The notes under the pieces: generated by a model
The model's input: only the letters and a program-made list of their open reading frames with translations
What the model was told of the DNA's origin: nothing
Databases searched by the model: none
Made by a program: the position numbers and the translations under genes
Assembly: GCA_024638815.1 (NCBI GenBank)
Contig: JAHEJM010000019.1
Span: 1 to 46,347 of the forward strand
Direction: 5' to 3'
Length of the DNA stretch: 46,347 bases
Source of the DNA: Acidimicrobiales bacterium
Lineage (GTDB): Bacteria > Actinomycetota > Acidimicrobiia > Acidimicrobiales > SZUA-35
In this document: in pieces, positions 8,525-45,917 of the stretch
How the letters are laid out: the number at the start of each line of letters is the position of its first letter
How positions within the stretch are numbered: position 1 is the first letter of the stretch

Positions 8525-8543
8525 GCCGTCGCCGGGAAACCCG

Positions 8544-24290: not shown

Positions 24291-25118
24291 GTGACCGCCG
24301 TTCTGGTCGCCGGACATCATCGGAGCGGCACCAGCCTGCTGGCACAACTGCTGGACCGAGCCGGGTTGTTCATGGGGGAGCGGCTGATGGGGGCCACCGA
24401 GGCCAATCCTCACGGTCACGTGGAGGATCTCGATGTCGTCGACATCCACGATCAGATATTGGCCGACAACGGATTGACGTGGCAGGTCGATCAGGAGTTC
24501 ATCCCCACCGTGAACCTCGATCTGGAGCGTCGCATCGGTGACCTCGTGGCTCGGCGGCGGGAGCTGGGCCGACCGTGGGGGGTCAAGGATCCCCGGATCT
24601 GCCTATTCCTCCCGCTGTGGAAGCACGTGTTGCCCGAGGCTCGGATTCTTGTCACCTTCCGGCCTCCGGCCGCCTGTATCGAATCGATGGAGCGCCGGTC
24701 GGCACGGGATCTCATCGAGGGTAGGGGAGACCCCGGCCACAACTGGCGGTTCTGGACCGAGCCCGATCATGGTGCTCGCCTCTGGTTGGTCCACAACCGA
24801 GCCTTGCTCCGGGCCGTCCGGGCCTACGGCGATGATGTCATCGTTGTCGGCTTCGACCAGCTCTCAGCCAACCGCGATGTCGTCGGGCTGCTCAACCAGC
24901 GATGGCATCTCGACCTCGAACCGGTGCCACCGGCCGCCATTCTCGACCCTGCGGCTATCACGGCTGGCGATGGTCCGCTCGAGGTGGTCGACGATCGCCT
25001 GCGCCGCGACATTGAGCGAGTGTGGATCGAGCTGATCGATCGGCAATGGCGGCCCCAACCCCCGATCACGGCGGTGACCGACCAGGCCCGAACGACGAGC
25101 CGGAAGGAAGCGGTGTGA
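24291..25118 (+). CDS. PAPS-dependent sulfotransferase family protein
   Basis: The 275-residue protein carries the 5'-phosphosulfate loop GHHRSGTSLLAQLLDRAG at residues 8-25. The 3'-phosphate region is VLVTFRP-like (RILVTFRPPAACIESMERRS), preceded by WGVKDPRICLFLPLW. This order is that of bacterial sulfotransferases acting on carbohydrates or small molecules with 3'-phosphoadenylyl sulfate as donor. It begins at GTG 24291. Its stop overlaps the GTG start of the coiled-coil gene, so it is the lead gene of a coupled three-gene operon. The acceptor is unknown; neighbouring glycosyltransferases suggest a glycan. Confidence 0.8.
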   Translation: MTAVLVAGHHRSGTSLLAQLLDRAGLFMGERLMGATEANPHGHVEDLDVVDIHDQILADNGLTWQVDQEFIPTVNLDLERRIGDLVARRRELGRPWGVKDPRICLFLPLWKHVLPEARILVTFRPPAACIESMERRSARDLIEGRGDPGHNWRFWTEPDHGARLWLVHNRALLRAVRAYGDDVIVVGFDQLSANRDVVGLLNQRWHLDLEPVPPAAILDPAAITAGDGPLEVVDDRLRRDIERVWIELIDRQWRPQPPITAVTDQARTTSRKEAV

Positions 25119-25732
25119 AGCCCCCGTCCATTCGGCATCCCGAGATCCTCCTGCAGCCCCCCGACGAGTTGTCGGCGTCGCGGCGGGCCTCGATTCTCGA
25201 CCACGAGAACCGATTGTTGCGAGCCCGATTGGAGGGAAGGGGTCGTGTCGAGGCCGACCCCGAGCTTCACCGTCGGCTGGCAGAGGCAACGACCGAGAAC
25301 CATCGGCTCAACGTCGAACTCGACGAGGCTCGCCGCAAACTGGATCACAGTCGCGGCCAGGAGGCCGAACTCCGGCGCCGACTTCAGGGTCAGACTCAGC
25401 AGGTCGTCAACCTGGGTGATCGGATCGCCGCCATGGGCCAACAGCTCAAGGGTCACGACGGCCGGATGCAACAGTTGTCACGGCAGATCGGAGAGGTCCA
25501 ACGGCTACACCACGATGCCGAGCGACGGGCCGACGTCGAGAATGAACTGAGGGAGGCGGCCAGGCGGATTGAACTCCTGGAGTCGGAGCTGGCCATGTCT
25601 CACTCCGACCTGGCCCAGGCTCGCGCCGATCTGGGGCGACTGCTGCTCCGATTGCGGTCCACGCCGCTGATTCATCTGTTCCGGCGGTGGAGCGGCTTCA
25701 GGATCATCGAATCGCGCTGGGGTGGTCGGTGA
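25115..25732 (+). CDS. Coiled-coil protein of unknown function
   Basis: The 205-residue product is dominated by heptad-like, charged sequence from about residue 25 to 185, for example ENHRLNVELDEARRKLDHSR and AARRIELLESELAMSHSDL. A short basic/aromatic C-terminus (LRSTPLIHLFRRW, ESRWGGR) follows. There is no signal peptide or membrane helix. Similar coiled coils often accompany or are fused to glycosyltransferases and methyltransferases in surface-polysaccharide loci, where they may measure chain length or scaffold enzymes. That is inference. GTG 25115 overlaps the sulfotransferase stop and the gene's own stop overlaps the next start. Confidence 0.75.
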   Translation: MKPPSIRHPEILLQPPDELSASRRASILDHENRLLRARLEGRGRVEADPELHRRLAEATTENHRLNVELDEARRKLDHSRGQEAELRRRLQGQTQQVVNLGDRIAAMGQQLKGHDGRMQQLSRQIGEVQRLHHDAERRADVENELREAARRIELLESELAMSHSDLAQARADLGRLLLRLRSTPLIHLFRRWSGFRIIESRWGGR

Positions 25733-26871: not shown

Positions 26872-27144
26872 TCGGCTCGGTCCGTGTCATTGCCGACTCC
26901 GAGATGTTCTTGGGGCGCTCGTTGCCGCTCGTCATCGGCCGACGCCCGCCGACGCTCCTACTGCGCCGGTCTGAATCGATGTCTGTTGGCCGATGAGCTG
27001 ATTCCTTCGTCCTCGTCGAGGTACCCTGCCGACTGCTAGGCTCGACAGAGCACCGCCGCCACACGCACACGCCGCCGCCGCCGATGTCTGGATCCGGGGT
27101 TGTTGGACCCGGTCGAGGTTCGTCGTGTACGGGAGGAGATCACG
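26872..27144. other. Gene-free leader region, right half duplicated at 28845-29012
   Basis: No convincing gene lies here. A 42-codon open frame from ATG 26868 (overlapping the preceding stop) to 26996 is possible but has no recognisable content. From about 26975 the sequence closely matches 28845 onwards, including the -10-like box and a CCGCCGCCACACGCACACG stretch. It therefore appears to be a promoter and 5' untranslated leader of roughly 100 bases. Confidence 0.6.
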
Positions 27145-27900
27145 TTGTCGCCGCCGCGCAAGATCGTCGTTCATTATCACATCTTCAAGAATGCCGGGAC
27201 GTCGATCGAGCGGTCATTGGAGGCCCATTTCGGTAACAGCCTGTTCCGTTTCGAGACGGAACGGCCCGACGGTCACCTCCGCCCCGACGATGCCGGGCGA
27301 CTGATCGAGGCCAATCCGGCTCTTCGGGCCATCAGCTCTCATCAGCTGCATCCGCCCATACCCGAAGGGCCGTTCGAGATCTTCCCCCTGGTAGCGATTC
27401 GAGAACCCATCAGACGGGTTCGTTCCGCCTATCTTTTCGAGTGGCAGAAACAGCCGGGCCTGGTCACCCCCAAAGGATCCTTTCGAGACTATGTGGAGTG
27501 GCGTTTGGCCAATCCCCGGCCCGGGGTGGTGGCCGATTTCCAGGTGACCCACCTGTCGAGATGTGTACTGGAGGATCGGGACCACGACTGGACCGATCTC
27601 GAGGCCGGTTTCGAGGTCGCAGTGGAGTTCTTGTCCTCGCTACCCGGTTTCGGTCTGGTTGAACGGTTCGAACAGTCGGTCCAGGTTCTCAACCGGGAAC
27701 TGTCGGCCTTCTATGGCCATCCGATCGAGATGCTCCAGTTCCGCCGGGACAACGTGACCCAGGATCCCGCCATTTCGCTCGACGACAGTCACGAGCTGAT
27801 CCGGGGCGAGCTGGGCGACGAGCTTTTCGACGAGCTGCTGGAGCGGAACCGGTTCGACCGGCGGCTCTATGAATGGGCGGTCGAGGCCTTCGAGCGGCGA
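26975..27900 (+). repeat. Left copy of a duplicated leader plus sulfotransferase-domain segment
   Basis: This segment is homologous to the one beginning near 28845, shifted by about 1,868-1,870 bases. The non-coding leader (about 170 bases) is very similar, with a few substitutions and single-base indels. The coding part is diverged but clearly related over about 240 codons. It is a tandem duplication whose end within the coding region is approximate. Confidence 0.8.
27037..27042 (+). promoter_or_regulatory. Candidate -10 box of the sulfotransferase-methyltransferase gene
   Basis: TAGGCT in CTGCTAGGCTCGAC matches the copy at 28906-28911 and the related TAGTCT box at 24179. No good -35 hexamer is evident. 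It would give a leader of about 95 bases. Confidence 0.45.
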
Positions 27901-28818
27901 TGGGGTCGTCCGGCATCGTCGATCGAACCGCCCATCGCCGGTACCCGGACCGGCGGGAATGGCCGTGCCGAGCTCGTGGGGGCGTCGGTCGCGGTGGGCG
28001 TCACCAATCCGGCGCACGAGACCGTTCAACCCAGGAGGACACGACAGCCCATGGCAAACACCGTCGACATCGAGGATGCGCTCTGGCTCCATATCGACAC
28101 CGATCTTCCCGCCGACCGGCTTCGGGCCGAGCTGGCCCGTTTCGAACCGTGGGGCCACAAGATCACCTTCAGCAGCGGGGTGTCGACGGCCGAGTTCGAG
28201 CGCCGCATCCCGTTCAACCAGACCTCGATCCAGAAGCTCCGGGTGGTGGAGCGCGAGGTGGATCTCGAGCCCTATCGGGGCGGCCGTGTGCTCGACATCG
28301 GCAGCAACAGCGGCCACAATTCGATTCGTCTCGCCACTACTTTGGACATGCGGGCGACCGGTGTCGACGTCACCGAGCGCCATATCGAGGTCGCCTCGAT
28401 GCTGGCCAAGATCAGTGGCGCCGAGGCCCGGTTCCTGTTGGCCGACGCCGAGACCTACTGCGAACCCGACAGCTTCGACATCGTGCTTCACTTTGGCACG
28501 CTCTACCATCTCCCCAACCCGCTTCAGGCGCTCGCCACCTCGTTCGCCAATCTCCGTCCCGGTGGGCTTTTGGCCCTGGAAACCCAGCTCTATGACCATC
28601 CCGACGACGAGAACCTGTGCTACTTCATGAACATGCACAACAACGACGCCTCGAACTTCTGGGCGTTGAGTACGTCGGTGGTCTCCCGATGCCTCACCAT
28701 GGTCGGCTTTGTCGATGTGGCCGAGCATTTCCGGGTACAGCCGGCGTCGTTGGCCCCCGGCATGTCGAGGGTGATCATGACCGCCCGCAAGCAGCCGGAG
28801 GCAAGAAGACCGGCCTGA
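27145..28818 (+). CDS. Sulfotransferase-methyltransferase fusion protein
   Basis: The 557-residue product joins two enzymes. Residues of about 1-250 are a carbohydrate-type sulfotransferase: HYHIFKNAGTSIERSLE is the 5'-phosphosulfate loop and REPIRRVRSAYLFEW the 3'-phosphate motif. From residue 303 (MANTVDIED) a SAM methyltransferase follows with VLDIGSNSGHNSIRLA near residue 382 and LHFGTLYHLPNPLQA, resembling CmoB/DUF1698-like families. The start is TTG 27145, six bases after GGAGGAG; the upstream ATG at 27084 is out of frame here although in frame in the paralogue. AGGAGG at 28033-28038, 12 bases before ATG 28051, suggests that a free methyltransferase may also be made. Confidence 0.82.
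   Translation: MSPPRKIVVHYHIFKNAGTSIERSLEAHFGNSLFRFETERPDGHLRPDDAGRLIEANPALRAISSHQLHPPIPEGPFEIFPLVAIREPIRRVRSAYLFEWQKQPGLVTPKGSFRDYVEWRLANPRPGVVADFQVTHLSRCVLEDRDHDWTDLEAGFEVAVEFLSSLPGFGLVERFEQSVQVLNRELSAFYGHPIEMLQFRRDNVTQDPAISLDDSHELIRGELGDELFDELLERNRFDRRLYEWAVEAFERRWGRPASSIEPPIAGTRTGGNGRAELVGASVAVGVTNPAHETVQPRRTRQPMANTVDIEDALWLHIDTDLPADRLRAELARFEPWGHKITFSSGVSTAEFERRIPFNQTSIQKLRVVEREVDLEPYRGGRVLDIGSNSGHNSIRLATTLDMRATGVDVTERHIEVASMLAKISGAEARFLLADAETYCEPDSFDIVLHFGTLYHLPNPLQALATSFANLRPGGLLALETQLYDHPDDENLCYFMNMHNNDASNFWALSTSVVSRCLTMVGFVDVAEHFRVQPASLAPGMSRVIMTARKQPEARRPA
28033..28053 (+). promoter_or_regulatory. Internal Shine-Dalgarno and ATG within the fusion gene
   Basis: AGGAGG at 28033-28038 is followed after 12 bases by ATG 28051, which opens the methyltransferase domain (MANTVDIED). 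The spacing is longer than the usual 5-9 bases. The codons just upstream encode an unconserved-looking Gly/Thr/Arg linker, as expected of a former intergenic region. Confidence 0.5.
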
Positions 28819-28844
28819 GGCGATCGGGTTTTGCTGATCGAGCC

Positions 28845-29770
28845 ATCGATGTCCTTCGCCGATGAGCTGATTCCTTCATCCCCGTCTCGGTACCCTGCCG
28901 ACTGCTAGGCTCGACGGAGCACCGCCGCCACACGCACACGACGCCGCCGCCGATGTCTGGATCCGGGATTGCTGGGCCCGGTCGAGTTGGTCGTGTCCGG
29001 GAGGAGATCACGATGTCGTCGCCGCGCAAGATCGTCGTCCACTATCACATCTTCAAGAACGCCGGAACATCGATCGAACGCTCCTTGGAGACCGTGTTCG
29101 GTGACGGCTTGTTCCGTTTCGAGACGGCACGGCCCGACGGTCACCTCGGCCCGGAGGATGCCGAGAAGCTGATCGCCGAGCAGCCTCGACTCCAGGCCGT
29201 CACCTCCCACCAGCTCCATCCTCCCCTGCCATCGGGGGGATTCGACGTCTTCCCCCTCGTCGTCCTTCGCGAGCCGATCAGCCGGGCCCGTTCCGCCTAC
29301 TTGTTCGAATGGCAGAAGCAGCTCGGTCTGGAACAGCCGAAGGGCACCTTCGCCCACTACGTCGAAGAGAAACTGGCTGGTCGACAGCCTGGGGTCATTG
29401 CCGATCTCCAGGTCGCTCACCTGTCCCGCCGACTCCTGATCGACAGAGGCCTGGCCTGGTCCGATCTGGAGGCCGGACTCGAGCTCGCCATCGAATTCCT
29501 GGACGGCCTTCCGGTGTTCGGTCTGGTGGAGCGGCTCGAGGAGAGTCTGGGCTTGTTCAACGCCGGCCTGGTCGAGTTCTACGGCCATGGTCGAGTTCAA
29601 CTCGAGCCCAGAAGAGACAACACAACCCAGGATGCCGGCCTTTCGTTGCACGAGATCCATCAGCGGATGGCCGATGAACTGGGGCCGTCCTTGTTCGAGG
29701 AACTGGTCCAACGGAACCGTTTCGACACGGAACTCTATCGTTGGGCCACCGAACGGTTCGCCGCGACGAT
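28845..29770 (+). repeat. Right copy of the duplicated leader plus sulfotransferase-domain segment
   Basis: This is the partner of 26975-27900. It begins CATCGATGTCC and includes the shared GATGAGCTGATTCCTTC, GGTACCCTGCCGACTGCTAG and ATGTCTGGATCCGGG blocks. It continues into the N-terminal sulfotransferase domain of the following gene. The downstream limit is approximate. Confidence 0.8.
28906..28911 (+). promoter_or_regulatory. Candidate -10 box of the sulfotransferase-glycosyltransferase gene
   Basis: TAGGCT in the same CTGCTAGGCTCGAC context as 27037-27042, about 100 bases before the start codon. Conservation between the duplicated leaders is consistent with function but may only reflect recent duplication. 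Confidence 0.45.
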
Positions 29771-32435
29771 GTCGGCCACGGTTCCGGCCGCCGAGAGTGA
29801 CCGGGCTCGGTTGGACGTGACCTCGAGCCCCGCATCCCCGTCGCCGGTCATGACATCCCCGGTGCAGGTGGCAAAGCTGGAACGACGGGTCCAATGGCAG
29901 GACGCCGTGCTGTCGGACCTCGAGACCACGCGACGACAGGAACGGGATCGGCTGGAGCAGATCGAATCCCGATACTACGAGACGCGTCGACGGTTGTTGA
30001 CTCTGGAGGCGGGGGCCAGCCTGGAAATCCCTGAGCCCCAGACGACGTCGCGCCGTGGTCGACTCCTGGCCCGGCTTCAAACCCGTATCGATTCGATCCA
30101 GCGACGGTATCAGTTTCAGCCGGGACACGATGATGATCTGCTCTACCTCCAGCGGGTGGTGGCCGAGTCGGGGCTCTTCGACCCCGAGTACTACCTGGGG
30201 CACAACCCCGATGTGGTCGACGCCGGGGTGAACTCGGTGGTCCACTACGTGGTGCACGGCGGGCTCGAGGGTCGGGCACCGTCGGAACTGTTCGATTCGG
30301 CCTGGTATCTGCACCACAACCCCGATGTTCGTCAAGCGGGGGTGAATCCGCTGGTCCACTATGTCCTGCACGGCCGGGACGAAGGTCGACCCGCTGTGGC
30401 TCCCGACGGTTCGCCGACCGAGCCCGACTCCAATCCTCATGGCATTCCCGGGCCCGATGAGTACGAGGAGATCTGCCGCTCGTTGCAGTTCGAACGGTTC
30501 GATGAACCCGACGTGTCGATCATCATCCCCATCTACAACGAAGTCGGCTACACCCTGTCGTGCCTCGAGGCGGTCTCGGGCTTGCAGACCCGTTACCGCT
30601 TCGAGGTTCTGGTCATGGACGACGCTTCCGATGATCCCGACGTGAAGATTCTGGAGGGCATCCGAGGGCTGCGCTACATCCGAATCGACGAGAACCTGGG
30701 TTTCCTCCGTAACTGCAACCGGGGTGCCGAGCACGCCCACGGCCGATATCTCGTCTTCCTCAACAACGACACCCGCGTCGACCCGCTGTGGCTCGACGCC
30801 CTGGTCGACACCTTCGACGAGCATGAAGACGTGGGTCTCGTCGGCTCCAAGCTGGTGTACGGCGACGGACGTCTGCAGGAGGCCGGAGGAATCATCTTCT
30901 CCGACGGGTCGGGTTGGAACTACGGACGATTGGAGGACCCCGACCGTCCTGAGTACAACTACGTCCGGGATGTCGACTACGCATCCGGAGCGTCGATCAT
31001 GATCGAGCGGGTGTACTTCGATCAACTGGGTCGGTTCGACGAGGATCTGGCACCCGCTTATTACGAGGACACCGATCTGTGCTTCCGGATCAGGGCTGAC
31101 GGTAAGCGGGTCCTGTACCAGCCTCGGTCGGTGGTCACCCATTTCGAGGGGATCTCGTCGGGAACCGACCTGACGGCCGGGGTCAAGATGCACCAGGCCG
31201 TCAACAAGGTCGCCTTCGAACTCAAGTGGCGGGATGTGCTGCGCCGAGCTCACCAGCCCGACAGTTCCCAGTTGGTCCGAGCGGCCGACCCGACCCCTCG
31301 AGGCCACATTCTCATCATCGATGCCGCCACACCGACGCCCGACCAGGACTCAGGGTCGATCGACATGTTCAATCTGATCAAGATCATCAGGGACATGGGC
31401 TACCGGGTGCACTTCATTCCCAGCAACGGGATGCAGCACGCAGGGTCCTACACCGCCGATCTTCAACGATTGGGGGTCAAGTGCGTCCATGAGCCCTACT
31501 ACACGACGGCCGGCGCCTACGTCGCGGAGTGCGGCGACATGTTCGACGCCGTCATCCTCTCCAGGGTCAACGTGGCCACGGCATGCCTCAACGACGTTCT
31601 CCTCCACTGCCCATCGGCTCGCCTTGTCTTCTACACCGTCGATCTTCACTTCCTTCGTGCCCTGCGCTCGGCCGAGGTCCGCAACGATCGACGAGCTCTC
31701 CGCCTGGCCGAGGAGCTGCGGCAAACCGAGTTGGCCATCATGGACCAGGTCGATGCCACAGTCGTGCTCAGCCGTCGGGAGAAGGACCTCCTGACCGACC
31801 TGGGCAAGTCCAACATCTCGGTCATTCCCCTGATCCGTGAACAGCTACCCCCGCCTCGCTATGGGTTCGAGCACCGCGACGGAGTCATGTTCGTCGGAGG
31901 GTTCCGCCATCCGCCGAACGTCGACGCCGTCGATTGGCTCCTGGCCGAGATCTGGCCCCTGGTCCGGACCGAGCGTGAGAAAAAGGGCCTGGATCCGATC
32001 ACGTTGCGGATCATCGGGAGCAACATCCCGCGACGCCTGCGCGACCATGGCGACGATGTCGAGATCTTCGGCTTCGTCGAGAATCTCGATCCCATCTTCG
32101 AGCGAGCCCTGCTCAGCGTGGCACCGCTTCGCTACGGGGCAGGCCTGAAAGGGAAGATCGCCACCAGTTTCGACTTCGGGGTGCCGGTGGTCGGCACGTC
32201 GGTGGCCTTCGAGGGCATGCCGGCCGAAGGCCTCGACGACATCGCCCTGGTAGCCGATACCGCTTTGGACCTGGCCCGACTACTGGTCGACGTTGCCGGG
32301 GACGGTAGGCGTTGGGCCCGTGTCTCGACGGCGAGTCGGGACTACATCGGACGCCACTACTCCCTCGACTCCATCCGGCCCAAGGTGATCAATCTGCTCG
32401 AGGGCGACCGACACGTCACCCCGGACATTGCGTAG
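29013..32435 (+). CDS. Sulfotransferase fused to two glycosyltransferase domains
   Basis: The 1,140-residue protein starts at ATG 29013, seven bases after GGAGGAG. Domains in order: a sulfotransferase (about 1-250; HYHIFKNAGTSIERSLE, REPISRARSAYLFEW) paralogous to the preceding gene, then a short coiled coil (about 284-326). Two repeats of the form YYLGHNPDVVDAGVNSVVHY...HG..EGR follow (about 387-462). A GT-A glycosyltransferase 2 domain comes next (about 500-712; VSIIIPIYNEVGYTLSCLEA, NNDTRVD, YYEDTDLCFRIR), and a GT-B/GT4-type domain (about 762-1130; GVMFVGGFRHPPNVDAVDWL, PLRYGAGLKGKI) ends the protein. It probably builds and sulfates a surface polysaccharide or glycoprotein glycan at the cytoplasmic face. 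Confidence 0.88.
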   Translation: MSSPRKIVVHYHIFKNAGTSIERSLETVFGDGLFRFETARPDGHLGPEDAEKLIAEQPRLQAVTSHQLHPPLPSGGFDVFPLVVLREPISRARSAYLFEWQKQLGLEQPKGTFAHYVEEKLAGRQPGVIADLQVAHLSRRLLIDRGLAWSDLEAGLELAIEFLDGLPVFGLVERLEESLGLFNAGLVEFYGHGRVQLEPRRDNTTQDAGLSLHEIHQRMADELGPSLFEELVQRNRFDTELYRWATERFAATMSATVPAAESDRARLDVTSSPASPSPVMTSPVQVAKLERRVQWQDAVLSDLETTRRQERDRLEQIESRYYETRRRLLTLEAGASLEIPEPQTTSRRGRLLARLQTRIDSIQRRYQFQPGHDDDLLYLQRVVAESGLFDPEYYLGHNPDVVDAGVNSVVHYVVHGGLEGRAPSELFDSAWYLHHNPDVRQAGVNPLVHYVLHGRDEGRPAVAPDGSPTEPDSNPHGIPGPDEYEEICRSLQFERFDEPDVSIIIPIYNEVGYTLSCLEAVSGLQTRYRFEVLVMDDASDDPDVKILEGIRGLRYIRIDENLGFLRNCNRGAEHAHGRYLVFLNNDTRVDPLWLDALVDTFDEHEDVGLVGSKLVYGDGRLQEAGGIIFSDGSGWNYGRLEDPDRPEYNYVRDVDYASGASIMIERVYFDQLGRFDEDLAPAYYEDTDLCFRIRADGKRVLYQPRSVVTHFEGISSGTDLTAGVKMHQAVNKVAFELKWRDVLRRAHQPDSSQLVRAADPTPRGHILIIDAATPTPDQDSGSIDMFNLIKIIRDMGYRVHFIPSNGMQHAGSYTADLQRLGVKCVHEPYYTTAGAYVAECGDMFDAVILSRVNVATACLNDVLLHCPSARLVFYTVDLHFLRALRSAEVRNDRRALRLAEELRQTELAIMDQVDATVVLSRREKDLLTDLGKSNISVIPLIREQLPPPRYGFEHRDGVMFVGGFRHPPNVDAVDWLLAEIWPLVRTEREKKGLDPITLRIIGSNIPRRLRDHGDDVEIFGFVENLDPIFERALLSVAPLRYGAGLKGKIATSFDFGVPVVGTSVAFEGMPAEGLDDIALVADTALDLARLLVDVAGDGRRWARVSTASRDYIGRHYSLDSIRPKVINLLEGDRHVTPDIA

Positions 32436-37388: not shown

Positions 37389-37495
37389 TTGACAAACGTC
37401 CCGGCGGTCCGACCGTGGGGCATCGAAGTGGTGGGTTCCGCCGGGCATCGTTCCGGTGGAACCCCACCGAACAAACAAAAGGGGGCAACAACCAC

Positions 37496-38518
37496 ATGAC
37501 GGCCACCCCGTCCTCAACCGAGGAGGCGGTCGGCGCCGATAGGGCCGACACCGCCGCCAGCACCAAGAAGGTCGGGCGACTGGGGGGTCACGGCATTTCG
37601 CAGTTCACCGGCACCGACCGCCGCGTGTTCCTGGCCATGTTGCTGATCCCGCTCACCGTCCACGTCCTTATCGTCTGGGTTCCCACCATCCTCTCGATTG
37701 GCCTCTCCCTGACCAAATGGAACGGGATCGGCCTCGACACCATCGAGTGGGTCGGCGTCGAGAACTACGACCAGATCATCCTGGGGGCGTTTCAGACCGA
37801 CTTCTTCCAGGCCGTTCTCAACAACGTCTGGTTGCTGCTGTTCCTGTTCTTCGGACCGACGCTGCTCGGCATGTTCCTGGCCTACCTGTTGGACAAGAAC
37901 CTGCGGGGCAGCCGCATCTACCAGAGCGTCTTCTATACCCCGGTGGTGCTCTCGCTGGCCGTGGTCGGCTTCATCTGGCAGAACATCATGTACGACCAGC
38001 AATACGGCCTGGCCACCTGGGCCTTCGGTGGCGGCGAGGCCGTCGACTGGCTGGGTAACCAGGAGTTCGTGATCGAGTTCGGTGGCTACGGACTGTCCAA
38101 GAACTTCATCGCCATCCTGGCCGCCATGGCCTGGCGCCACACCGGCTACATCATGGTGCTGTACCTGGCCGGGTTGAAGAGTGTGGACGTCTCGCTCAAG
38201 GAGTCGGCGTCGCTCGACGGCTGCAACGAGTGGCAGACATTCCGCCACGTGCTGTTCCCCACGCTCAAGCCCATCAACGTCATTGTGGTCGTCATCACGG
38301 TCATCGAGGCACTGAGGGCCTTCGACATTGTCTATGTACTCAACACGCCGAGGAACACCGAGCTGTTGTCGATTCTCACCACCGACAACCTCATTGGTGA
38401 GGGCGCCGACAACATCGGGAGAGGCTCGGCCTACGCCACCGTGCTCTTCGCCCTCTGTATCGGCTTCGTTCTCTGGTATGTCACCAATCACTATCGCAAT
38501 CAGGAGAGTTCGGTATGA
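37496..38518 (+). CDS. Sugar ABC transporter permease (MalF/UgpA-like)
   Basis: The 340-residue inner-membrane protein has about six transmembrane helices after a polar N-terminus of some 45 residues. The ATPase-contacting EAA loop is visible as KESASLDGCNEWQTFRHVLF followed by PTLKP. Helices such as FLAMLLIPLTVHVLIVW and ALCIGFVLWYV flank the core. ATG 37496 is preceded by GGGGGCAACAACCAC. It overlaps the second permease gene by four bases (ATGA), indicating coupled synthesis of the two halves of the channel. Confidence 0.93.
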   Translation: MTATPSSTEEAVGADRADTAASTKKVGRLGGHGISQFTGTDRRVFLAMLLIPLTVHVLIVWVPTILSIGLSLTKWNGIGLDTIEWVGVENYDQIILGAFQTDFFQAVLNNVWLLLFLFFGPTLLGMFLAYLLDKNLRGSRIYQSVFYTPVVLSLAVVGFIWQNIMYDQQYGLATWAFGGGEAVDWLGNQEFVIEFGGYGLSKNFIAILAAMAWRHTGYIMVLYLAGLKSVDVSLKESASLDGCNEWQTFRHVLFPTLKPINVIVVVITVIEALRAFDIVYVLNTPRNTELLSILTTDNLIGEGADNIGRGSAYATVLFALCIGFVLWYVTNHYRNQESSV

Positions 38519-39450
38519 CCGATGTAGCCGAGCCGACAACGTCGGCGGCCGAGGTTGTGAAGTCGGGGAATGGGCGACCGGCCCCCAGGAAGAAGCCGGT
38601 ACGACCGGCTCGCATCGGACTCCACCTGTTCCTCATCGTTCTCGGCGTGCTGTGGCTGGTGCCCCTCGTCGTCTCCCTGTACGTTTCATTCCGTCCCTTC
38701 AGCGAAACCCAGGCGAAGGGTTTCCTGTCGATGCCCGACTCCTTCAACCTGGACAACTACGATTCGGCTCTGGACCAGGGTGACTTCATCGACAAGTACT
38801 GGAACACCGCGCTCATCCTGGTGCCGTCGCTGATCCTCACCTTGTTCCTGGCCTCGATGATCGCCTTTGTGGCCAGCCGGTACTCGTGGCGGTTCAACGT
38901 CTTCTTCCTCGTGCTGTTCACCGCCGGCAACCTGTTGCCGCCCCAGATCATGGTGGCCCCGCTGTTCCAGGCCTTCCGGCGGATTCCACTGCCGGATTTC
39001 ATGTCCAACTCCGGCAACCTGAACGGCTCGAACTGGGCCATCATCCTCCTCCATGTAGGCTTCCAGATGGGGTTCTGCACCTTCGTGCTGAGCAACTACA
39101 TGAAGTTGTTACCAAAGGAGCTCAACGAGGCGGCCGTGGTCGACGGGGCCAGCCTGTGGACCGTGTACTCCAAGGTTGTCATGCCCTTGACCCGTCCGGC
39201 CCTGGCCGCGCTGGCCACCCTGGAGTTCGCCTGGATCTACAACGACTTCTTCTGGGCCGTCATCTTCGAGCAGCGAGGCGACGACCGGCCCATCACCTCG
39301 GCTCTGGCCAACCTCGGTGGACAGTTCGTCACCGACACCAATGTGGTGGCGGCGGCGTCAATCTTCGTCATCATCCCGGTGATGATCGTGTACTTCGCCC
39401 TGCAGAAACACTTCATCGCCGGTCTCACTTTGGGATCAACCAAGGGCTAA
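38515..39450 (+). CDS. Sugar ABC transporter permease (MalG/UgpE-like)
   Basis: The 311-residue permease pairs with the preceding one. It shows a hydrophobic first helix (LHLFLIVLGVLWLVPLVVSL) after 45 polar residues. The EAA loop LNEAAVVDGASLWTVYSKVV followed by MPLTRP, and the C-terminal QKHFIAGLTLGSTKG, are the usual end of this family. No ATPase gene follows, so the transporter must borrow one encoded elsewhere, as MsiK-type ATPases do in actinobacteria. The operon ends in a long hairpin. Confidence 0.94.
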   Translation: MTDVAEPTTSAAEVVKSGNGRPAPRKKPVRPARIGLHLFLIVLGVLWLVPLVVSLYVSFRPFSETQAKGFLSMPDSFNLDNYDSALDQGDFIDKYWNTALILVPSLILTLFLASMIAFVASRYSWRFNVFFLVLFTAGNLLPPQIMVAPLFQAFRRIPLPDFMSNSGNLNGSNWAIILLHVGFQMGFCTFVLSNYMKLLPKELNEAAVVDGASLWTVYSKVVMPLTRPALAALATLEFAWIYNDFFWAVIFEQRGDDRPITSALANLGGQFVTDTNVVAAASIFVIIPVMIVYFALQKHFIAGLTLGSTKG

Positions 39451-39465
39451 CCACCCCTCTCCTTC

Positions 39466-39517
39466 GAACTTTGAGCGTCGGACGACCCAGTTTGGGGTCG
39501 TGGGCGGCTCAAAGTTC
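39466..39517. terminator. Long 52-nt hairpin between convergent operons, probable bidirectional terminator
   Basis: GAACTTTGAGC (39466-39476) pairs with GCTCAAAGTTC (39507-39517). Inside it ACGACCC pairs with GGGTCGT around a short loop, with an unpaired bulge between the two stems. It lies 16 bases after the permease stop and nine before the convergent HTH gene end. The inverted repeat is perfect over 11 outer and 7 inner base pairs. Confidence 0.75.
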
Positions 39518-39526
39518 CGGGCGAGA

Positions 39527-39901
39527 TCAGGGGCGGATGGCGTTGAGATAGCTGTAGAGGGTGACCCGGCTGACTTCCAGCAGTTGGGCGATGTCCTCGA
39601 CCGCACCCCGAAGCAGGAATGCTCCCTGCTCGTCGAGCCGACGAACCGCGATCTGCTTCTGCTCGCGGGTCATGTCGGCCAATCCCACGCCCAGTTCCCG
39701 TTCCACCGACCGCATCAGTCGGTCCAGCGCACCGTGCAGTTCCGGACCACGGACATAGCCGACGATCTCGTCCTTCCATGCCAGCTCGATGTCGGTGGGC
39801 CCGGCCTCGTCGGCGCCGACCATGGAGCCACCGAGAGCCTCGATCACCGGTAGCACCGAGTCCAGAAACACTGACACCTCGGACTGGAGTCGATCCGTCA
39901 T
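39527..39901 (-). CDS. Helix-turn-helix regulator with C-terminal HTH_22-type domain
   Basis: The 124-residue protein has an alpha-beta N-terminal half (TDIELAWKDEIVGYVRGPEL). The C-terminal half is a helix-turn-helix of the kind seen in DauR/YheO-like regulators: MTREQKQIAVRRLDEQGAFL, LRGAVEDIAQLLEVSRVTLY and SYLNAIRP. It probably binds DNA. It starts on an ATGA overlap with the thiamine-binding DUF77 gene, suggesting the pair senses and responds to a small molecule. No target is evident. Confidence 0.72.
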   Translation of the reverse strand: MTDRLQSEVSVFLDSVLPVIEALGGSMVGADEAGPTDIELAWKDEIVGYVRGPELHGALDRLMRSVERELGVGLADMTREQKQIAVRRLDEQGAFLLRGAVEDIAQLLEVSRVTLYSYLNAIRP

Positions 39902-40152
39902 CGCTCGGCGCTGGCCACCCTGAGTGAGACCGCGGTGGCCCCGGCGTCGAAGCTGTCCTCGAGCAGCGAGCGCACGATGCCCAGGACCTGGTCCAGCGAG
40001 CCGGCGGCAGTGGTGGCGAACGGTCCCATCTCGGGATCGAGGCCGGCGTGGCGCAGCACATCGACCGCAGCGATGACATGCCGGCCGGGCTCGTTCTCCT
40101 TGAACGGCTCGACGAACACCTCGACGTGGACCTGGCGGGCCTCGGTCGCCAT
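39898..40152 (-). CDS. MTH1187/DUF77-family thiamine-binding protein
   Basis: The 84-residue product matches the small ferredoxin-like DUF77 (MTH1187/YkoF-like) proteins that bind thiamine or related ligands. HVEVFVEPFKENEPGRHVIA opens the fold; DVLRHAGLDPEMGPFATTAA and GSLDQVLGIVRSLLEDSF correspond to the conserved helix-strand section. Usual length is about 95-100 residues. It is first in a leftward pair with an HTH regulator, so it may deliver a ligand signal to it. The ATG at 40152 has only a modest ribosome site. Confidence 0.75.
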   Translation of the reverse strand: MATEARQVHVEVFVEPFKENEPGRHVIAAVDVLRHAGLDPEMGPFATTAAGSLDQVLGIVRSLLEDSFDAGATAVSLRVASAER

Positions 40153-40230
40153 GCCCCGACTGTAGCCGATGGCGTCAGCCCGGTCCGAGGAAACGGGGCC
40201 ATGGTCCCTGCGGTGCGGTTTCAGCTCTGG

Positions 40231-41004
40231 TCATGCCGGGGCAAGGAGGTCGGCCGTGTGGAGCGATCGACGCAGGTCGGCGGCGAATCTGGCGGTTGGT
40301 GCTCCGTCGACGATCCGGTGGTCGACGGTGATCGTCAGTGGCAAGACCAGGCGACTGACGATTTGGTCGTCGACAACTTGCGGTTGGGGTGCAATACCGC
40401 CGACGACGATGGTCAGTGACGACAGGGTCGGGGCGGAAATCCCGAAGCCGCCACCTCCTCCGAACATGCCGACCGAGGTGAGCGAGACGGTGCCGGTCCG
40501 CTGTCTCAGGTAGATTGATCGACTCGCCAGCTTGTAGCCAAGTCTCACGAGTCCGGGCACGGCGGCGATTGACGGAAGCTCGCGATTCGACAGCCGCCCA
40601 CCCGGACTGGCTTTCGGGTCGTGCTGAATCGTGCGGATCTCCTCGCTGATATCGGCGACCGTGCGTGAGTCGGCATCGACTACCAGGTGAGCGAGAGGGA
40701 AAGCACCTGTGGGGGTCGTCACCTCGACCAGCGTTGCGATGTCGACATGGCTGTGCAGAATCAGGCGGCCCCGCCAGTCCCGGTAGCCGTGAACCTCGGG
40801 GTGACGAGCCACGGCTCTCCCCACGCAGGCGGCGACGAACGCCGTCATCGACAAGGGGGGATCCGCGGCCAGGAGTCGGCGTCGGGCCGACGTGACATCC
40901 ACCTCGATCAGCCCGTGGATGGGAATCTGGGCCCGCCCGGTCCTCAACGCCTCGGTGACCAGCCGTCTGCTGCGAGGAATCGTGCGTACTTCGATCGATC
41001 GCAT
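40231..41004 (-). CDS. Stand-alone 2-oxoacid dehydrogenase E2-type acyltransferase domain
   Basis: The 257-residue product corresponds to the catalytic core of dihydrolipoamide acyltransferases without the lipoyl and peripheral-subunit-binding domains. The active-site signature is TVDHRIVDGAP (HxxxDG). GFGISAPTLSSLTIVVGGIA and PLSMTAFVAACVGRAVARHP are other family segments. A five-glycine run (MFGGGGGFG) lies where trimer-contact residues are usual. It may be an acyltransferase with a different acceptor, as it cannot swing its own lipoyl arm. It stands alone, leftward, 79 bases from the DUF77 gene. Confidence 0.8.
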   Translation of the reverse strand: MRSIEVRTIPRSRRLVTEALRTGRAQIPIHGLIEVDVTSARRRLLAADPPLSMTAFVAACVGRAVARHPEVHGYRDWRGRLILHSHVDIATLVEVTTPTGAFPLAHLVVDADSRTVADISEEIRTIQHDPKASPGGRLSNRELPSIAAVPGLVRLGYKLASRSIYLRQRTGTVSLTSVGMFGGGGGFGISAPTLSSLTIVVGGIAPQPQVVDDQIVSRLVLPLTITVDHRIVDGAPTARFAADLRRSLHTADLLAPA

Positions 41005-41156
41005 GTCTTGATTCGGCGTCAGGGCGGCCCGGAGTGGCCAGAGGCCAAGGTCCCTATCCCGAGGGTCGTAACCGAACGATAACTTGACAAAACGTTAAAT
41101 GATCTGAAAGCCTTTCCCCGTTCGAGGGCGTAGACCGTGGGAGACTTGACACTCGA
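41005..41156. promoter_or_regulatory. Divergent promoter region before the BMP-type ABC importer
   Basis: The gap has an unusually A/T-rich patch around 41070-41110. It contains a perfect TTGACA at 41084-41089 and AACG...CGTT inverted copies on either side. A second TTGACA lies nine bases from the rightward ATG, and GCGTAGACC before it could serve as a -10. Promoters for both directions are likely, but I cannot place them exactly. Confidence 0.4.
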
Positions 41157-42302
41157 ATGAACCATCGATTGTCGGGCCTGCTCATTCCTGCCGCCGCCGT
41201 GGTGGCAGCCCTGCTCATCGGCGCGCTCATGATCCTGGCCCTGGGGGCCAACCCGGTCGACGGCTACCGGGAGCTGTTCATCGGGGCATTCGGCAGTGGC
41301 GACGCCCTGGCCGATACTGCGGTCCGGGCCATGCCCCTGCTGCTCGTCGGTGTGGGAATCTGCGTGGCCTTTCGGGCCAAGGTCATCAACATCGGCGGTG
41401 AGGGACAGATCATTGCCGGGGCCCTGGTGTCGACGGTGACCGTCTTGGTCGTGCCCGGACTGCCGTCGCTCATCCTGATCCCGCTGGTGTTGGTGGCCGG
41501 AATGATCGGCGGCGGATTCTGGGGTGCCATTCCCGGAGCCCTGAAGGCCTACCTCTCGGTCAACGAGATCCTGAGCACGATCATGTTGAACATCGTGGCT
41601 GTGCAGATCATGAACTATCTGCTGCGTGACCCCCTGATCGATCCCGAGGAAATCGAGCGAGGAACCAGAATCCCCCAGACCGAGCGGCTGTCGGAAAACG
41701 CCGACCTGCCCATCCTGCTCGACGGCACCCGACTGCACCTGGGTGTGGTGGTGGCGGTGATGGCCGCCGTGGTGGCCTGGGCCTTTCTGTGGCGAACCAC
41801 CATCGGCTTCAAGGTCAGGGCGGTGGGCCAGAACCCGGCCGCCGCCGGGTATGCCGGCATGCCGGTCAAGCGGATGACATTGTTGGCCCTGACCTACTCC
41901 GGGGCCATGTGCGGGCTGGCCGGAGCTGTGCTGGTTTTCGGCAGCCAATCCCACCGTCTCATTACCGACGGCTCGTCCGCCGGTTTCACCGGATCGGCCG
42001 GCTTCAACGGCATCGTGGCCGCCCTCTTCGGCGGACTCCATCCGCTATGGACCATCCCGTCGTCGTTCCTGTTCGGCGGCCTGCTGGTCGGCGCCAACGC
42101 CATGCAGCGAGCCATCCAGATCCCCTCGGCGCTGGCGGTGGGGCTCAACGGTCTGGTCGTCGTGTTCGTGGTCAGCAGCAACCGCATACGGGACCGCATG
42201 CGCCAGCGGTCCGAACTGGCCGCTGCGGCCCGGGCACTGGCTCGCCGAGAGGCCGAGGATGAACAGCACACCGACGACATCGGCGGCAAGGTGGTGGCAT
42301 GA
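41157..42302 (+). CDS. BMP-type ABC transporter permease 1 (nucleoside-type importer)
   Basis: The 381-residue membrane protein belongs to the BPD_transp_2 permeases that serve purine-nucleoside importers (YufP/NupP-like). An N-terminal helix (LIPAAAVVAALLIGALMILA) is followed by PLLLVGVGICVAFRAKVINI, GGEGQIIAGALVSTV and SVNEILSTIMLNIVA. FKVRAVGQNPAAAGYAGM is the cytoplasmic loop that contacts the ATPase. ATG 41157 starts it. The stop overlaps the next permease start, and the C-terminus is a charged 40-residue tail (RQRSELAAAARALARRE). Confidence 0.93.
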   Translation: MNHRLSGLLIPAAAVVAALLIGALMILALGANPVDGYRELFIGAFGSGDALADTAVRAMPLLLVGVGICVAFRAKVINIGGEGQIIAGALVSTVTVLVVPGLPSLILIPLVLVAGMIGGGFWGAIPGALKAYLSVNEILSTIMLNIVAVQIMNYLLRDPLIDPEEIERGTRIPQTERLSENADLPILLDGTRLHLGVVVAVMAAVVAWAFLWRTTIGFKVRAVGQNPAAAGYAGMPVKRMTLLALTYSGAMCGLAGAVLVFGSQSHRLITDGSSAGFTGSAGFNGIVAALFGGLHPLWTIPSSFLFGGLLVGANAMQRAIQIPSALAVGLNGLVVVFVVSSNRIRDRMRQRSELAAAARALARREAEDEQHTDDIGGKVVA

Positions 42303-43237
42303 TGAGCGAGTTCTTCACCACGTCGGTGCTGATCGCCACCTTCGCCGCCGGGGTTCGTCTTGCCATGCCGTTTCTGCTGGCCGCCCTGGGCGAAACCATG
42401 GGCCAACGCAGCGGTGTTCTCAACCTCGGCGTCGACGGTGTCATGCTGCTCGGTGCGTTCTTCGCCTACTGGACGGTACTGGAGACCGACTCCCGACTGG
42501 GCGGGGTGATGGTCGGCCTGCTCGTCGGTCTGCTCATGGGGGTGCTGTACGCCGTCGTCACCCTGGTTTTCCAGGCGGAACAGGGAATCAGCGGCATCGG
42601 CATCTTCCTGTTCGGCCTGGGCATGAGCGAGCTGCTGTTCCAGGAGCTGGTGGGCACACCACTGCCCATTTCGGCCTTCACCGAGACCAAGATTCCGATT
42701 CTGGGCGACATCCCGTGGCTGGGAGAGATGTTCTTCACCCACAGTCCTCTGGTGTATGCCGCCATCGTGCTGGTGTTCATCCTCACCTGGGTGATCAACA
42801 GCACCACCTTCGGCCTCAACGTGCGGGCGGTGGGGGAGAATCCGGAGGCGGCAGACTCGCTCGGTGTCAGCGTCAACCGAACACGGGCCATCACCATCGT
42901 CATCGGCAACTCCCTGGCCGGGGTGGCCGGGGCCGCCCTCACCATCGAACTCGGAACCTTCCAGAACAACCTGACCAACGGCATCGGCTTCATTGCCGTG
43001 GCCCTCGTCTACTTCGGGGCCTGGCGGCCCTTCGGGGTCCTGGCCGGTTCCCTGCTCTACGGCCTGGTCACCGCCACCGTGACCCAGCTCAAGGTGCTCG
43101 ACATCGTCAGCGGGGCCACGGCCAGCCTGGCCACCACCGCCCCGGCCGTGCTCACCGTGATCGCGTTGGCCGTCATCGCCCGTCGCACCGCCGATCAGCC
43201 CGCTGCCCTGACCGTTCCCTTCAGCCGCAGCGGCTGA
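42299..43237 (+). CDS. BMP-type ABC transporter permease 2
   Basis: The 312-residue partner permease (YufQ/NupQ-like) shows GETMGQRSGVLNLGVDGVML and FQAEQGISGIGIFLFGLGMS. The loop NVRAVGENPEAADSLGVSVN is shared with the first permease. Together they form the channel for a nucleoside or nucleobase, judged from the family. Two ATGs lie in tandem (42299 and 42302), the first overlapping the upstream stop. A 76-base gap with AAGAGGAGAGACAG leads to the binding-protein gene. Confidence 0.93.
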   Translation: MMSEFFTTSVLIATFAAGVRLAMPFLLAALGETMGQRSGVLNLGVDGVMLLGAFFAYWTVLETDSRLGGVMVGLLVGLLMGVLYAVVTLVFQAEQGISGIGIFLFGLGMSELLFQELVGTPLPISAFTETKIPILGDIPWLGEMFFTHSPLVYAAIVLVFILTWVINSTTFGLNVRAVGENPEAADSLGVSVNRTRAITIVIGNSLAGVAGAALTIELGTFQNNLTNGIGFIAVALVYFGAWRPFGVLAGSLLYGLVTATVTQLKVLDIVSGATASLATTAPAVLTVIALAVIARRTADQPAALTVPFSRSG

Positions 43238-43313
43238 GACCCGAACGCTTCCAACCAAGCAACCCGCAAGATGCCGACACAACGTCGGTGAATCAGTCAA
43301 GAGGAGAGACAGA

Positions 43314-44387
43314 ATGACAACCAAACCGAGGTGGAAACTGCTGCTGGCGCTGTTTGCCGTGCTGAGCGTGCTGGGCGCAGCGTGCGGTGACTCCGACGAC
43401 AACGCCGACGATGATGGTGGTGACGAGTCGGTCACCGAGACCGAGGAGTCCAGCGACGATACCGAGACCGAGTCCGGTGATGATGCCGCCGGCGACGGGG
43501 GATCAAGCGACGGTATCCGGATCGCCATCGTGGCCCCCAGCGCCGAGAACGACCTGGCCTTCACCCAGAGCATCGTGGAAGGGGTTGACGCCCTGAACGG
43601 TGTCAGCGACGTTGCCATCACCCCCGGCACCTTCGTGGTCGAGGACGCCGCCACCGCCATTCGCAACTATGCCGACGAGGGCTACGACCTCGTGATCGCC
43701 CACGGCTCCCAGTACGGGGGTCCGTTGCAGGAGATCGCCAAGGAGTTCCCCGACACCGCCTTCGCCTGGGGCACGGCCGAGGACACCTTCGGTCTGGACA
43801 ATGTCTCGTCCTACACCGCAGCAGCCGATGAGGGGGGCTACGTGCTCGGGGCCCTGGCCGCCTCCATGTGCTCGAAGATCGGTGTCGTCGGCCCCATCGC
43901 CGTAGGCGACGCCAAGCTGTACGTCGACGGCTTCACCCTGGGGGCCGAGGACAACGGCGCCGAGGTCGACGTGGTCTACACCGAGTCGTTCTCCGACACC
44001 CAGCTGGCCTCGGAGACGGCGTCGGCCTTCGTACAGAACGGTGCCGACTGTCTGACCGGAACGGCCCAGATGACGGTGGGTGCCATCGGAGTGGCCGAGC
44101 AGGAGGGTCTTCTGTGGTTCGGCACCCAGTCCGATCAGACCCCGGCCGCCGCCGATGGTGTCGTGGTGGCCAACCAGGTCTACCAGTGGGAGTTCGTGCT
44201 CCAGGATCTGGTCGACGACGTCGTCGCCGGCGAAACCGGGGGCAACATCTACGGAATCACGCTGGAGAACAGTGGCCTGGCCATCGACTTCGGAAGCGTG
44301 GAGGTCACCGACGACATGACCACGGTGGTGGACGACACCAGCGCCGCCGTCATCGCCGGCGAGGTTACGACGATCATCGACGGCTGA
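43314..44387 (+). CDS. BMP-family ABC transporter substrate-binding lipoprotein
   Basis: The 357-residue basic-membrane-protein-family lipoprotein has a signal peptide with lipobox LGAAC (Cys24). A long acidic linker of Asp, Glu and Ser (DDNADDDGGDESVTETEESS) follows, then a periplasmic-binding fold. Family segments are RIAIVAPSAENDLAFTQSIV, DLVIAHGSQYGGPLQEIAKE and AFVQNGADCLTGTAQMTVG. In related PnrA/BmpA proteins this fold binds purine nucleosides, so a similar ligand is likely but unproven. It lies between the permease genes and the ATPase gene, six bases before the latter. Confidence 0.93.
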   Translation: MTTKPRWKLLLALFAVLSVLGAACGDSDDNADDDGGDESVTETEESSDDTETESGDDAAGDGGSSDGIRIAIVAPSAENDLAFTQSIVEGVDALNGVSDVAITPGTFVVEDAATAIRNYADEGYDLVIAHGSQYGGPLQEIAKEFPDTAFAWGTAEDTFGLDNVSSYTAAADEGGYVLGALAASMCSKIGVVGPIAVGDAKLYVDGFTLGAEDNGAEVDVVYTESFSDTQLASETASAFVQNGADCLTGTAQMTVGAIGVAEQEGLLWFGTQSDQTPAAADGVVVANQVYQWEFVLQDLVDDVVAGETGGNIYGITLENSGLAIDFGSVEVTDDMTTVVDDTSAAVIAGEVTTIIDG

Positions 44388-44393
44388 TCCCCC

Positions 44394-45917
44394 TTGTCCG
44401 ACCTGCCGTCCCACACCGACATCCCGATGCTGGAAATGCGGGGAATCACGAAACGGTTCCCCGGGGTTCTGGCCAACGATCACGTCAGCTTCGATGTTCG
44501 GGCCGGCGAGGTTCACACGCTGCTCGGGGAGAACGGGGCGGGCAAGAGCACGCTGATGAAGATCCTGTTCGGGCTGTATCGAGCCGACGAGGGCGAGATC
44601 CTGTTCAACGGCAAGCCGTTGCAGATCTCGTCCCCGTCGGCGGCCATTGCCGCCGGCATCGGCATGATCCATCAGCATTTCATGCTGGTGCCGATCCTGA
44701 CGGTGACCGAGAATGTGGCCCTTGGACTGTCGTCGTCAGGGCTCCGGCCCGATCTGGCCGATGTCGAGGACCGGGTGCGGGCCTTGGCCGACGAGTACGG
44801 CTTGCAGGTCGATCCTCGAGCCGAGGTGTGGCAGCTGGCGGTCGGGGAGCGTCAGCGGGTGGAGATCCTCAAGGCGCTCTACCGCGAGGCCCGGCTTCTG
44901 GTACTGGATGAGCCCACTGCAGTGCTGACACCCCAGGAGGTGGACGACTTCTTCGTCACCCTGCGCAAACTGGCCGAGGACGGTCGGGGGTTGATCTTCA
45001 TCTCCCACAAACTGCACGAGGTCCTGGCTCTGTCCGATCGCATCACCGTGTTGCGTGACGGTCGGGTCACCGGTCACACCACGCCGGCCGAGACCAGTCG
45101 CCAACAACTGGCCGAGATGATGGTGGGTCGACCGGTCAAGTTGGCCCCGGACAAGCCGGAGGTCGAGTTCGGCGAGGCCCGCCTGACCATCCACGATCTG
45201 TCGGTTCGAGGTGATCGGGATCACACTGCGGTCGACGGAGTCTCGTTCGAGGTTCGAGCCGGCGAGATACTGGGGATCGCCGGTGTCTCCGGGAACGGTC
45301 AGCGGGAGCTGGCCGAGGCTGTGGCCGGGCTGCGACCACCCGATCAGGGGTCGATCCGGCTCGATGGTGTCGAGGTGGCGGGTGCGTCACCTCGGGAGAT
45401 CCGGGCCGCCGGGTTGGCCTACGTGCCCGAGGAGCGCATGCGTGACGGAGCCATCGGTGCCTTCACCGTCAGCGAGAACCTGATGCTGCTCGATCACGAT
45501 TCGCCGGCCTACTCCCGGCGGGGGTGGCTCGACCTCGGGTCTCTGAACGAGCGGGCCGAACAACTGGTCGAGCGCTTTGCCGTCAAGACTCCGTCGGTCC
45601 ACACCGCCACCCGTTCGCTGTCGGGGGGCAATATCCAGAAGGTCATCTTGGCCCGGGAGATCACCTCGGGCCCGGCGGTGCTGCTGGCGGCCCAGCCGAC
45701 CCGGGGGGTCGACATCGGAGCGGCCGAGTACATCCATCACCAGCTGGTGGAACAGCGTGGGGCCGGAACCGCCATCGTCGTCATCTCCGAGGATCTCGAC
45801 GAGGTGCTGGCTCTGGCCGATCGGGTGGCGGTGATGTTCGAAGGCCGGATCGTGGGCGTGGCCGATCGCGCCGATTGCACGCCTGAGGGCCTCGGACTGC
45901 TCATGGCCGGAGGCTGA
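44394..45917 (+). CDS. ABC transporter ATPase with two nucleotide-binding domains (BMP-type importer)
   Basis: The 507-residue protein is a tandem ATPase of the YufO/RbsA type that powers the adjacent permeases. Domain 1 has Walker [10 protein letters not shown], a signature region [15 protein letters not shown] and Walker [13 protein letters not shown]. Domain 2 has the usual degenerate Walker [10 protein letters not shown], the canonical signature [15 protein letters not shown], and [14 protein letters not shown] after it. The first signature (AVGER) departs from LSGG, as is normal for these proteins. TTG 44394 lies six bases after the binding-protein stop; an ATG at [10 protein letters not shown] is an alternative start 11 codons in. 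Confidence 0.93.

Follow-up and report, generated by a model that had tools for sequence, protein, structure and literature searches.

What could two neighbouring genes be making together when each begins with the same sulfotransferase (ST) module and then continues into entirely different enzymes? Such a pair lies in a 46,347-nucleotide stretch of an Acidimicrobiales bacterium (GenBank assembly GCA_024638815.1, contig JAHEJM010000019.1), hereafter the window, on the forward strand of which gene A joins an ST to a methyltransferase and gene B joins an ST to two glycosyltransferase (GT) domains, one of family GT2 and one GT4-like. A sequence-only reading, made without database searches, had proposed that the module was duplicated into two multi-enzyme fusions with its leader copied too, so that one protein would sulfate and elongate a glycan beside another that would sulfate and methylate. 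That a duplicated ST module is carried in two different fusions is confirmed as a real observation. Based on sequence comparisons and structure models, we consider it probable that the pair encodes STs fused to assembly enzymes of a sulfated surface glycan and that it goes back to an old duplication with later gene conversion, the substrate, the activity and the shared product being the predicted parts of this reading. The pair is real and partly understood, consisting of known kinds of enzymes in a new arrangement.

The shared leader and the sulfotransferase module

In a local DNA alignment the two genes were alike at the 5' end over about 900 bases, with 26975-27879 pairing with 28845-29747. 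The non-coding leaders of 170 bases (26975-27144 and 28845-29012) are 91% identical (E 5.8e-62), and a search of the same genome (4.7 Mb, 227 contigs) returned exactly these two copies and no other. Immediately 5' of both start codons stand the identical 14 bases GGGAGGAGATCACG (27131-27144 in A, 28999-29012 in B); the starts, TTG in gene A and ATG in gene B, were picked by this common ribosome site. The modules that follow share 63% protein identity across 249 residues, after which the two proteins diverge completely into different tails. The closely similar leader of about 170 bases, the same ribosome site and the common N-terminal module were all correctly read from the letters, and alignment at nucleotide and protein level confirmed the similarity, which is, however, not uniform along its length. 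A promoter was read by eye at the TAGGCT of the leader, which a sigma-70 scan did not list.

Because the Pfam Sulfotransfer_2 scores of both copies are under the cut-off (11.8 and 11.5 bits against 22), the ST reading needed securing by profile, fold and relatives. A search for solved relatives with the single sequence matched no sulfotransferase; a profile from 26 sequences detected the heparan sulfate (HS) 6-O-sulfotransferase 5t03 at E 1.6e-8 and an HS 2-O-sulfotransferase at E 0.018, so that the match survives profile searching. The AlphaFold2 model of the module from 26 sequences has a mean predicted local distance difference test (pLDDT) score of 94.3, and its top Foldseek match in the Protein Data Bank (PDB) was the HS 2-O-sulfotransferase 4ndz (E 2.4e-6, query TM 0.58); ranks 1 to 16 were all sulfotransferases, just two of these matches being at E <=0.001. 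K15, H66, R86 and S94 do not vary in any of the 26 aligned rows, and we take them, from the animal enzymes, to be residues binding 3'-phosphoadenosine 5'-phosphosulfate (PAPS) or the base, presumably H66. ST relatives occur at 24 loci of the genome collection, 20 of them as stand-alone open frames of 251-311 residues. Three relatives were compared with the Sulfotransfer_2 cut-off, which those at L043 (23.1 bits) and L017 (24.0 bits) pass, the one at L044 giving no match. Despite the low Pfam scores, the assignment made from the letters holds by profile and fold, with the shared module predicted to act as a carbohydrate-type ST of the heparan-sulfate ST superfamily. At L043 (2930-5035) a window-type ST module was also seen to carry a long C-terminal extension, in which no Pfam family was found at E 0.1.

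It is unlikely, in our estimate, that the modules are inactive as enzymes or have a substrate that is not a glycan, such as a protein, a lipid or a small molecule. The sub-cut-off scores would fit such a case, as would at least one relative (in genome G353) placed, by eye, outside an evident glycan locus, but the cofactor-motif residues are invariant, the best solved relatives are carbohydrate STs, glycosyltransferases serve as fusion partners and glycan genes stand beside the relatives at L007, L008 and G027.

Gene B and related fusions

In gene B the module is followed by a coiled coil, two NPDV repeats, a GT2 domain and a GT4-like domain, as the sequence-only reading had it, with both GT2 and Glyco_trans_1_4 above their Pfam cut-offs (Table 1). 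The GT2 domain carries LNNDTRVD and YEDTDLCFR, which are presumably its acidic motifs. A full-length AlphaFold2 model of the protein (mean pLDDT 68.7) is useful for the ST and, in part only, for the coiled coil. No 19-residue window of A or B rose above 1.55 in hydropathy, and B is most likely a soluble enzyme since it has no strongly hydrophobic stretch. We propose that B would be a cytoplasmic enzyme in which a PAPS-dependent carbohydrate O-sulfotransferase is tethered by the coiled coil and the NPDV repeats to the GT2 and GT4-like domains, so that both sulfate and sugar would be put on one growing lipid-linked surface glycan, and that the coiled coil would keep the enzyme in oligomers. An 800-residue antisense open reading frame (ORF) over gene B (28905-31307, minus strand) is probably a by-product of high G+C.

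Counting the window's own genome here and below, the ST module was found in 4 of 39 family genomes, all four belonging to the 12 genomes of the window's genus, in 9 of 397 order genomes, two of these merely at E 3e-4 and 8e-4, and in 2 of 296 class genomes at E <=1e-15. Fusion B is complete in L009 (1186 residues) and L010 (1233 residues), contigs of genomes G032 and G033, and an assembly misjoin was rejected for B on account of these two copies. G027 has two pieces at the ends of two contigs, one running from ST to GT2 and the other holding the GT4-like part, which we read as one gene of the B type. Since this layout is shared by the other three genus members that carry the ST, B is an established architecture of the genus and no misjoin. 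In another species (G030), the GT2-GT4 part occurs with no ST. Next to orthologues of B, a GT61 gene and a Wzt-type ATP-binding cassette (ABC) gene lie at L008, a further GT2-GT4 protein and an acyltransferase at L007, and a GT61 gene in G027. Two more ST-like genes were noticed at L007, by eye only, of which one has a Pfam score of 16.9 bits against 27 and the other none. Near the G033 fusion, a 1543-residue ORF at L008 (15244-19875) appears repetitive by eye.

Fusions of STs with glycosyltransferases are not limited to the B type, and further kinds occur elsewhere in the order and class. A G089 protein (L046), found through its neighbour ST, has the order Sulfotransfer_3-coiled coil-GT2 (38.4 bits against 27) and is cut by the contig end after GT2. 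Similarly, G054 and G079 have ST-coiled coil-GT2-GT4 proteins of the same kind, recognised by similarity to the window gene at 24291-25118 and, for G054, also to the G089 protein; the Pfam ST is under the cut-off in both. A single contig of G536 carries two fusions of a Gal-3-O-sulfotransferase with GT2 (50.9 and 50.8 bits against 27), and this ST is a distant relative of the window ST (profile E 4.2e-22), so the ST families are not unrelated; the fusions nevertheless probably arose separately, because they involve different ST Pfam families and partner layouts. A marine record titled Proteobacteria bacterium (L017, 5998-7719) joins a window-type ST to RgpF, a rhamnan synthesis F domain. With ST-GT fusions present in related genomes, the coupling of sulfation with chain growth that had been suggested for B becomes more plausible, although it is still something we infer.

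Homologues of the GT2-GT4 part gave 30 matches in 27 of the 397 order genomes. Nine were scanned with Pfam: seven were without an ST at E 0.05, and two (L081 and L083) had an ST-type N-terminus, assigned by pairwise BLAST, with no Pfam ST match at L081 and one at E 0.038 at L083. L062 was scanned as 945 of 1107 open residues, and the other GT2-GT4 matches were viewed, in their longest frame, over no more than 420 residues from its start. At L081, which belongs to G054, a stand-alone window-type ST (4427-5221) stands head to head with the Sulfotransfer_3-like-coiled coil-GT2-GT4 gene (5206-8526).

Gene A and the history of the pair

Past its linker, gene A continues into a SAM (S-adenosylmethionine) methyltransferase, in agreement with what had been read from the letters, the Methyltransf_25 score being well over its cut-off (Table 1). 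An assignment of this domain to the tRNA methyltransferase CmoB was rejected (NCBIfam equivalog, 59.6 bits against 275). The nearest relative is a stand-alone methyltransferase in G322, 36-37% identical from residue 13 of the 28051-28815 stretch, the gene of which adjoins an NAD-dependent epimerase; a weak methyltransferase match was also found in G023. Matches amount to 2 of 39 family genomes (E <=1e-10) and 2 of 397 order genomes (E <=1e-15). Gene A would thus be a diverged ST duplicate fused in frame to a sugar-type O-methyltransferase, a protein that would sulfate and methylate, possibly with a second start yielding the free methyltransferase.

How firmly the two halves belong together depends on the linker. 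The A frame is without a stop from 27145 to 28815; the linker itself has no stop in any of the three forward frames and about a 40% likelihood of being open by chance, and the unbroken frame is therefore weak evidence there. GC by codon position in the linker is 0.70/0.70/0.74, a weak codon periodicity with third-position GC still high. An AGGAGG lies 12 bases 5' of the ATG at 28051, forming the sole AGGAGG-N4-13-ATG on the plus strand of the window, and similarity to the stand-alone methyltransferase starts 12 residues past this ATG; we read the site as a remnant, perhaps even a working start, of a once separate methyltransferase gene. An assembly misjoin is possible at this junction. The weakly periodic linker, the AGGAGG and the stand-alone relative all agree with an alternative in which A is no working fusion, its halves being separate genes that a minor error of sequencing or assembly in the linker has joined, or being translated independently from starts at 27145 and 28051. 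The lack of fusion A in any other genome searched points the same way, but the stop-free frame and the high third-position GC throughout the linker speak for a single gene, and we regard the alternative as somewhat unlikely. Hence, of the two architectures proposed, the large fusion B recurs in relatives, whereas fusion A was found in its own genome only.

The claim that the leader was copied together with the module in one event is not supported as it was put. Identity between the two copies drops at a change point at 27296 (27275-27299), with 285 of 319 positions identical before it (89%) and 398 of 602 after it (66%); the log-likelihood gain is 32.6, a value that in 500 permutations did not exceed 8.9. 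Third codon positions of A and B are identical at 32 of 41 sites in the first 50 codons and at 62 of 116 later (p 0.006). Since a 5' excess could be due to constraint, other pairs were also compared: B and the G027 gene show no such excess (19 of 32 against 69 of 125, p 0.70), and the five remaining gene pairs gave p 0.14 to 1. As a whole, the leader had no match upstream of three orthologues (G027, L009 and L010), where scores of 20-23 were obtained against shuffled maxima of 23-27. Trees were built from 19 rows, namely the two copies of the window, 14 of the 24 ST loci and the genes of G027, G089 and G353, other rows being left out, and came with long-branch warnings; without the first 55 residues, A falls outside B, G027 and L009 at a moderate support of 88/89.

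The simplest account of these results would be an old ST duplication, after which the leader and the first 50 codons of the neighbours were made alike by recent gene conversion, in one pair of one genome; the duplication appears to predate the divergence of some of the species in the genus. A likeness kept by regulatory or translational constraint, instead of gene conversion, is in our view unlikely. It would explain why the -10-like string ACTGCTAGG of the leader recurs before the G027 gene, and the ribosome site is strong, but the leader is otherwise unmatched upstream of the orthologues and the pair of B and G027 is without a 5' excess. An RNA element in the leader is likewise unsupported: the segment 27046-27160 of the A leader transcript folds worse than 200 shuffles (z +2.55), and an Rfam scan gave no match in the leader and a single one, far under the gathering score, at 30555-30614 inside gene B.

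Table 1. Positions of the features discussed (window coordinates, except for the last row)
Feature	Position	Strand	Basis or remark
Separate ST gene, Sulfotransfer_3	24291..25118	+	37.2 bits against 27; like N-terminal part of G089, G054 and G079 fusions
Coiled-coil ORF overlapping or next to Sulfotransfer_3 gene	25022..25732	+	True start unsure
Leader of gene A	26975..27144	+	-10-like TAGGCT 27037-27042 inside ACTGCTAGGCTCGA 27032-27045; ribosome site 27131-27144
Alike tract, leader and first 50 codons	26975..27296, partner 28845 to about 29164	+	Change-point test
Gene A, ST-methyltransferase fusion, 557 residues, TTG start	27145..28818	+	ORF list, Pfam
ST module of A	27145..27894	+	63% identical to B module; K15, H66, R86, S94 invariant in 26 rows
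Linker of A	27895..28050	+	Weakly periodic; open in three forward frames; AGGAGG 28033-28038
Class I SAM methyltransferase domain of A	28051..28815	+	From in-frame ATG; Methyltransf_25 53.3 bits against 27
Leader of gene B	28845..29012	+	Match to A leader
Gene B, ST-coiled coil-2 NPDV repeats-GT2-GT4-like, 1140 residues, ATG start	29013..32435	+	ORF list, Pfam
ST module of B	29013..29770	+	AlphaFold2 mean pLDDT 94.3; Foldseek 4ndz E 2.4e-6
Coiled coil of B	29862..30011	+	Single long helix, residues 283-335, moderate confidence (model)
Two NPDV repeats of B	30177-30275 and 30291-30389	+	Also in L009 and L010; no Pfam family listed
GT2 domain core of B	30516..30896	+	PF00535 94 bits against 23.3
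GT4-like domain core of B	31881..32288	+	PF13692 Glyco_trans_1_4 62.2 bits against 27
Gal-3-O-ST-GT2 copies of G536, same class	L089 6901-8634 and 11956-14226		Second runs off contig

The reading as a whole and known systems

Several observations weigh against the proposed role in a sulfated surface glycan and against parts of the proposed history. Besides the sub-cut-off Pfam scores of both STs and the presence of fusion A in none of the 39 family and 397 order genomes other than its own, the G353 relative lies, by eye, between a P450 and an ispG-like gene with no evident glycan locus. The second of the two Glu residues that we take to be the usual GT4 catalytic motif was not seen by eye in B (GKIATSFDFG), L009 or L010, and the GT4-like domain may accordingly not be catalytic and may have a binding role instead of a transfer one. 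Among 30 window ORFs scanned with Pfam there was neither a Wzt-type exporter nor a further GT. The fork supported at 88/89 is below the program's star (95/80), and the tree from all columns leaves it open. The own genome does encode an adenosine 5'-phosphosulfate (APS) kinase for PAPS supply (230 bits); such a kinase is common, occurring in 11 of the 14 control genomes, so that its presence says little.

A bolder extension, which we hold to be rather doubtful, is that in this actinobacterial group STs of three Pfam families were each fused to GT2-type GTs, making extension and sulfation one processive step, and that gene A is a fresh module swap on a common ST platform, in which the gene-converted leader and 5' end act as a cassette that puts a new catalytic tail under the same promoter, with the same expression. 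Documentation of sulfated polysaccharides in actinobacteria is thin; repeated joining of ST and GT would mark which GT acts on a sulfated glycan, and the fusions would offer single soluble proteins for assaying coupled sulfation and elongation.

Elsewhere in the window, the separate ST gene and the coiled-coil ORF (24291-25732) are, taken together, similar to the ST-coiled coil-GT proteins of G089 and G054 over the N-terminal half of these. The ABC genes at 37415-45917 appear to be of the importer type. A phage or plasmid origin was rejected on searches of phage records (no ST match), plasmid records (four with distant ST matches, none over 80% of the query) and viral contigs (no relative of A). 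The fold as such is not confined to cells, however, as it recurs in viral proteins named sulfotransferase (five at E <=0.001, the best being an uncultured Caudovirales protein at E 4.6e-7).

Among known enzymes, the HS 2-O- and 6-O-sulfotransferases are animal Golgi enzymes. Profile and structure searches show that the window STs resemble these Sulfotransfer_2 members in their fold and in the motifs of the PAPS site, but the window STs are bacterial, have no membrane segment, are fused to a GT or a methyltransferase and score under the family cut-off. The animal N-deacetylase/N-sulfotransferase (NDST) also joins an ST to another glycan enzyme in one protein and is thus alike in principle; it differs in having a deacetylase partner and an ST of another subfamily, and in being a Golgi membrane protein.

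Among bacterial clusters, the glycan cluster wps-1 of the actinomycete Actinoplanes missouriensis has a similar gene set, which includes GTs, a methyltransferase and two STs that differ in family, one of them being of heparan-sulfate type, but as separate genes and with a sulfated product that is so far a prediction (PMC13390465). The paper also states that production of sulfated polysaccharides in actinobacteria still awaits experimental proof and that bacterial ones are reported in cyanobacteria only (PMC13390465), a statement contradicted by the sulfated capsule of Cobetia marina, with its solved structure and a cluster of GT, ST, PAPS and ABC-export genes (PMC11766843). The accessible portion of that report describes ST genes and GT genes and mentions no fusion (PMC11766843). 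Titles and abstracts of open-licence papers included none naming a bacterial ST-GT fusion, which is no proof of absence. Close parallels to gene B are the fusions of G536, G054, G079 and G089, GT proteins that, like B, begin with an ST, here drawn from other Pfam families.

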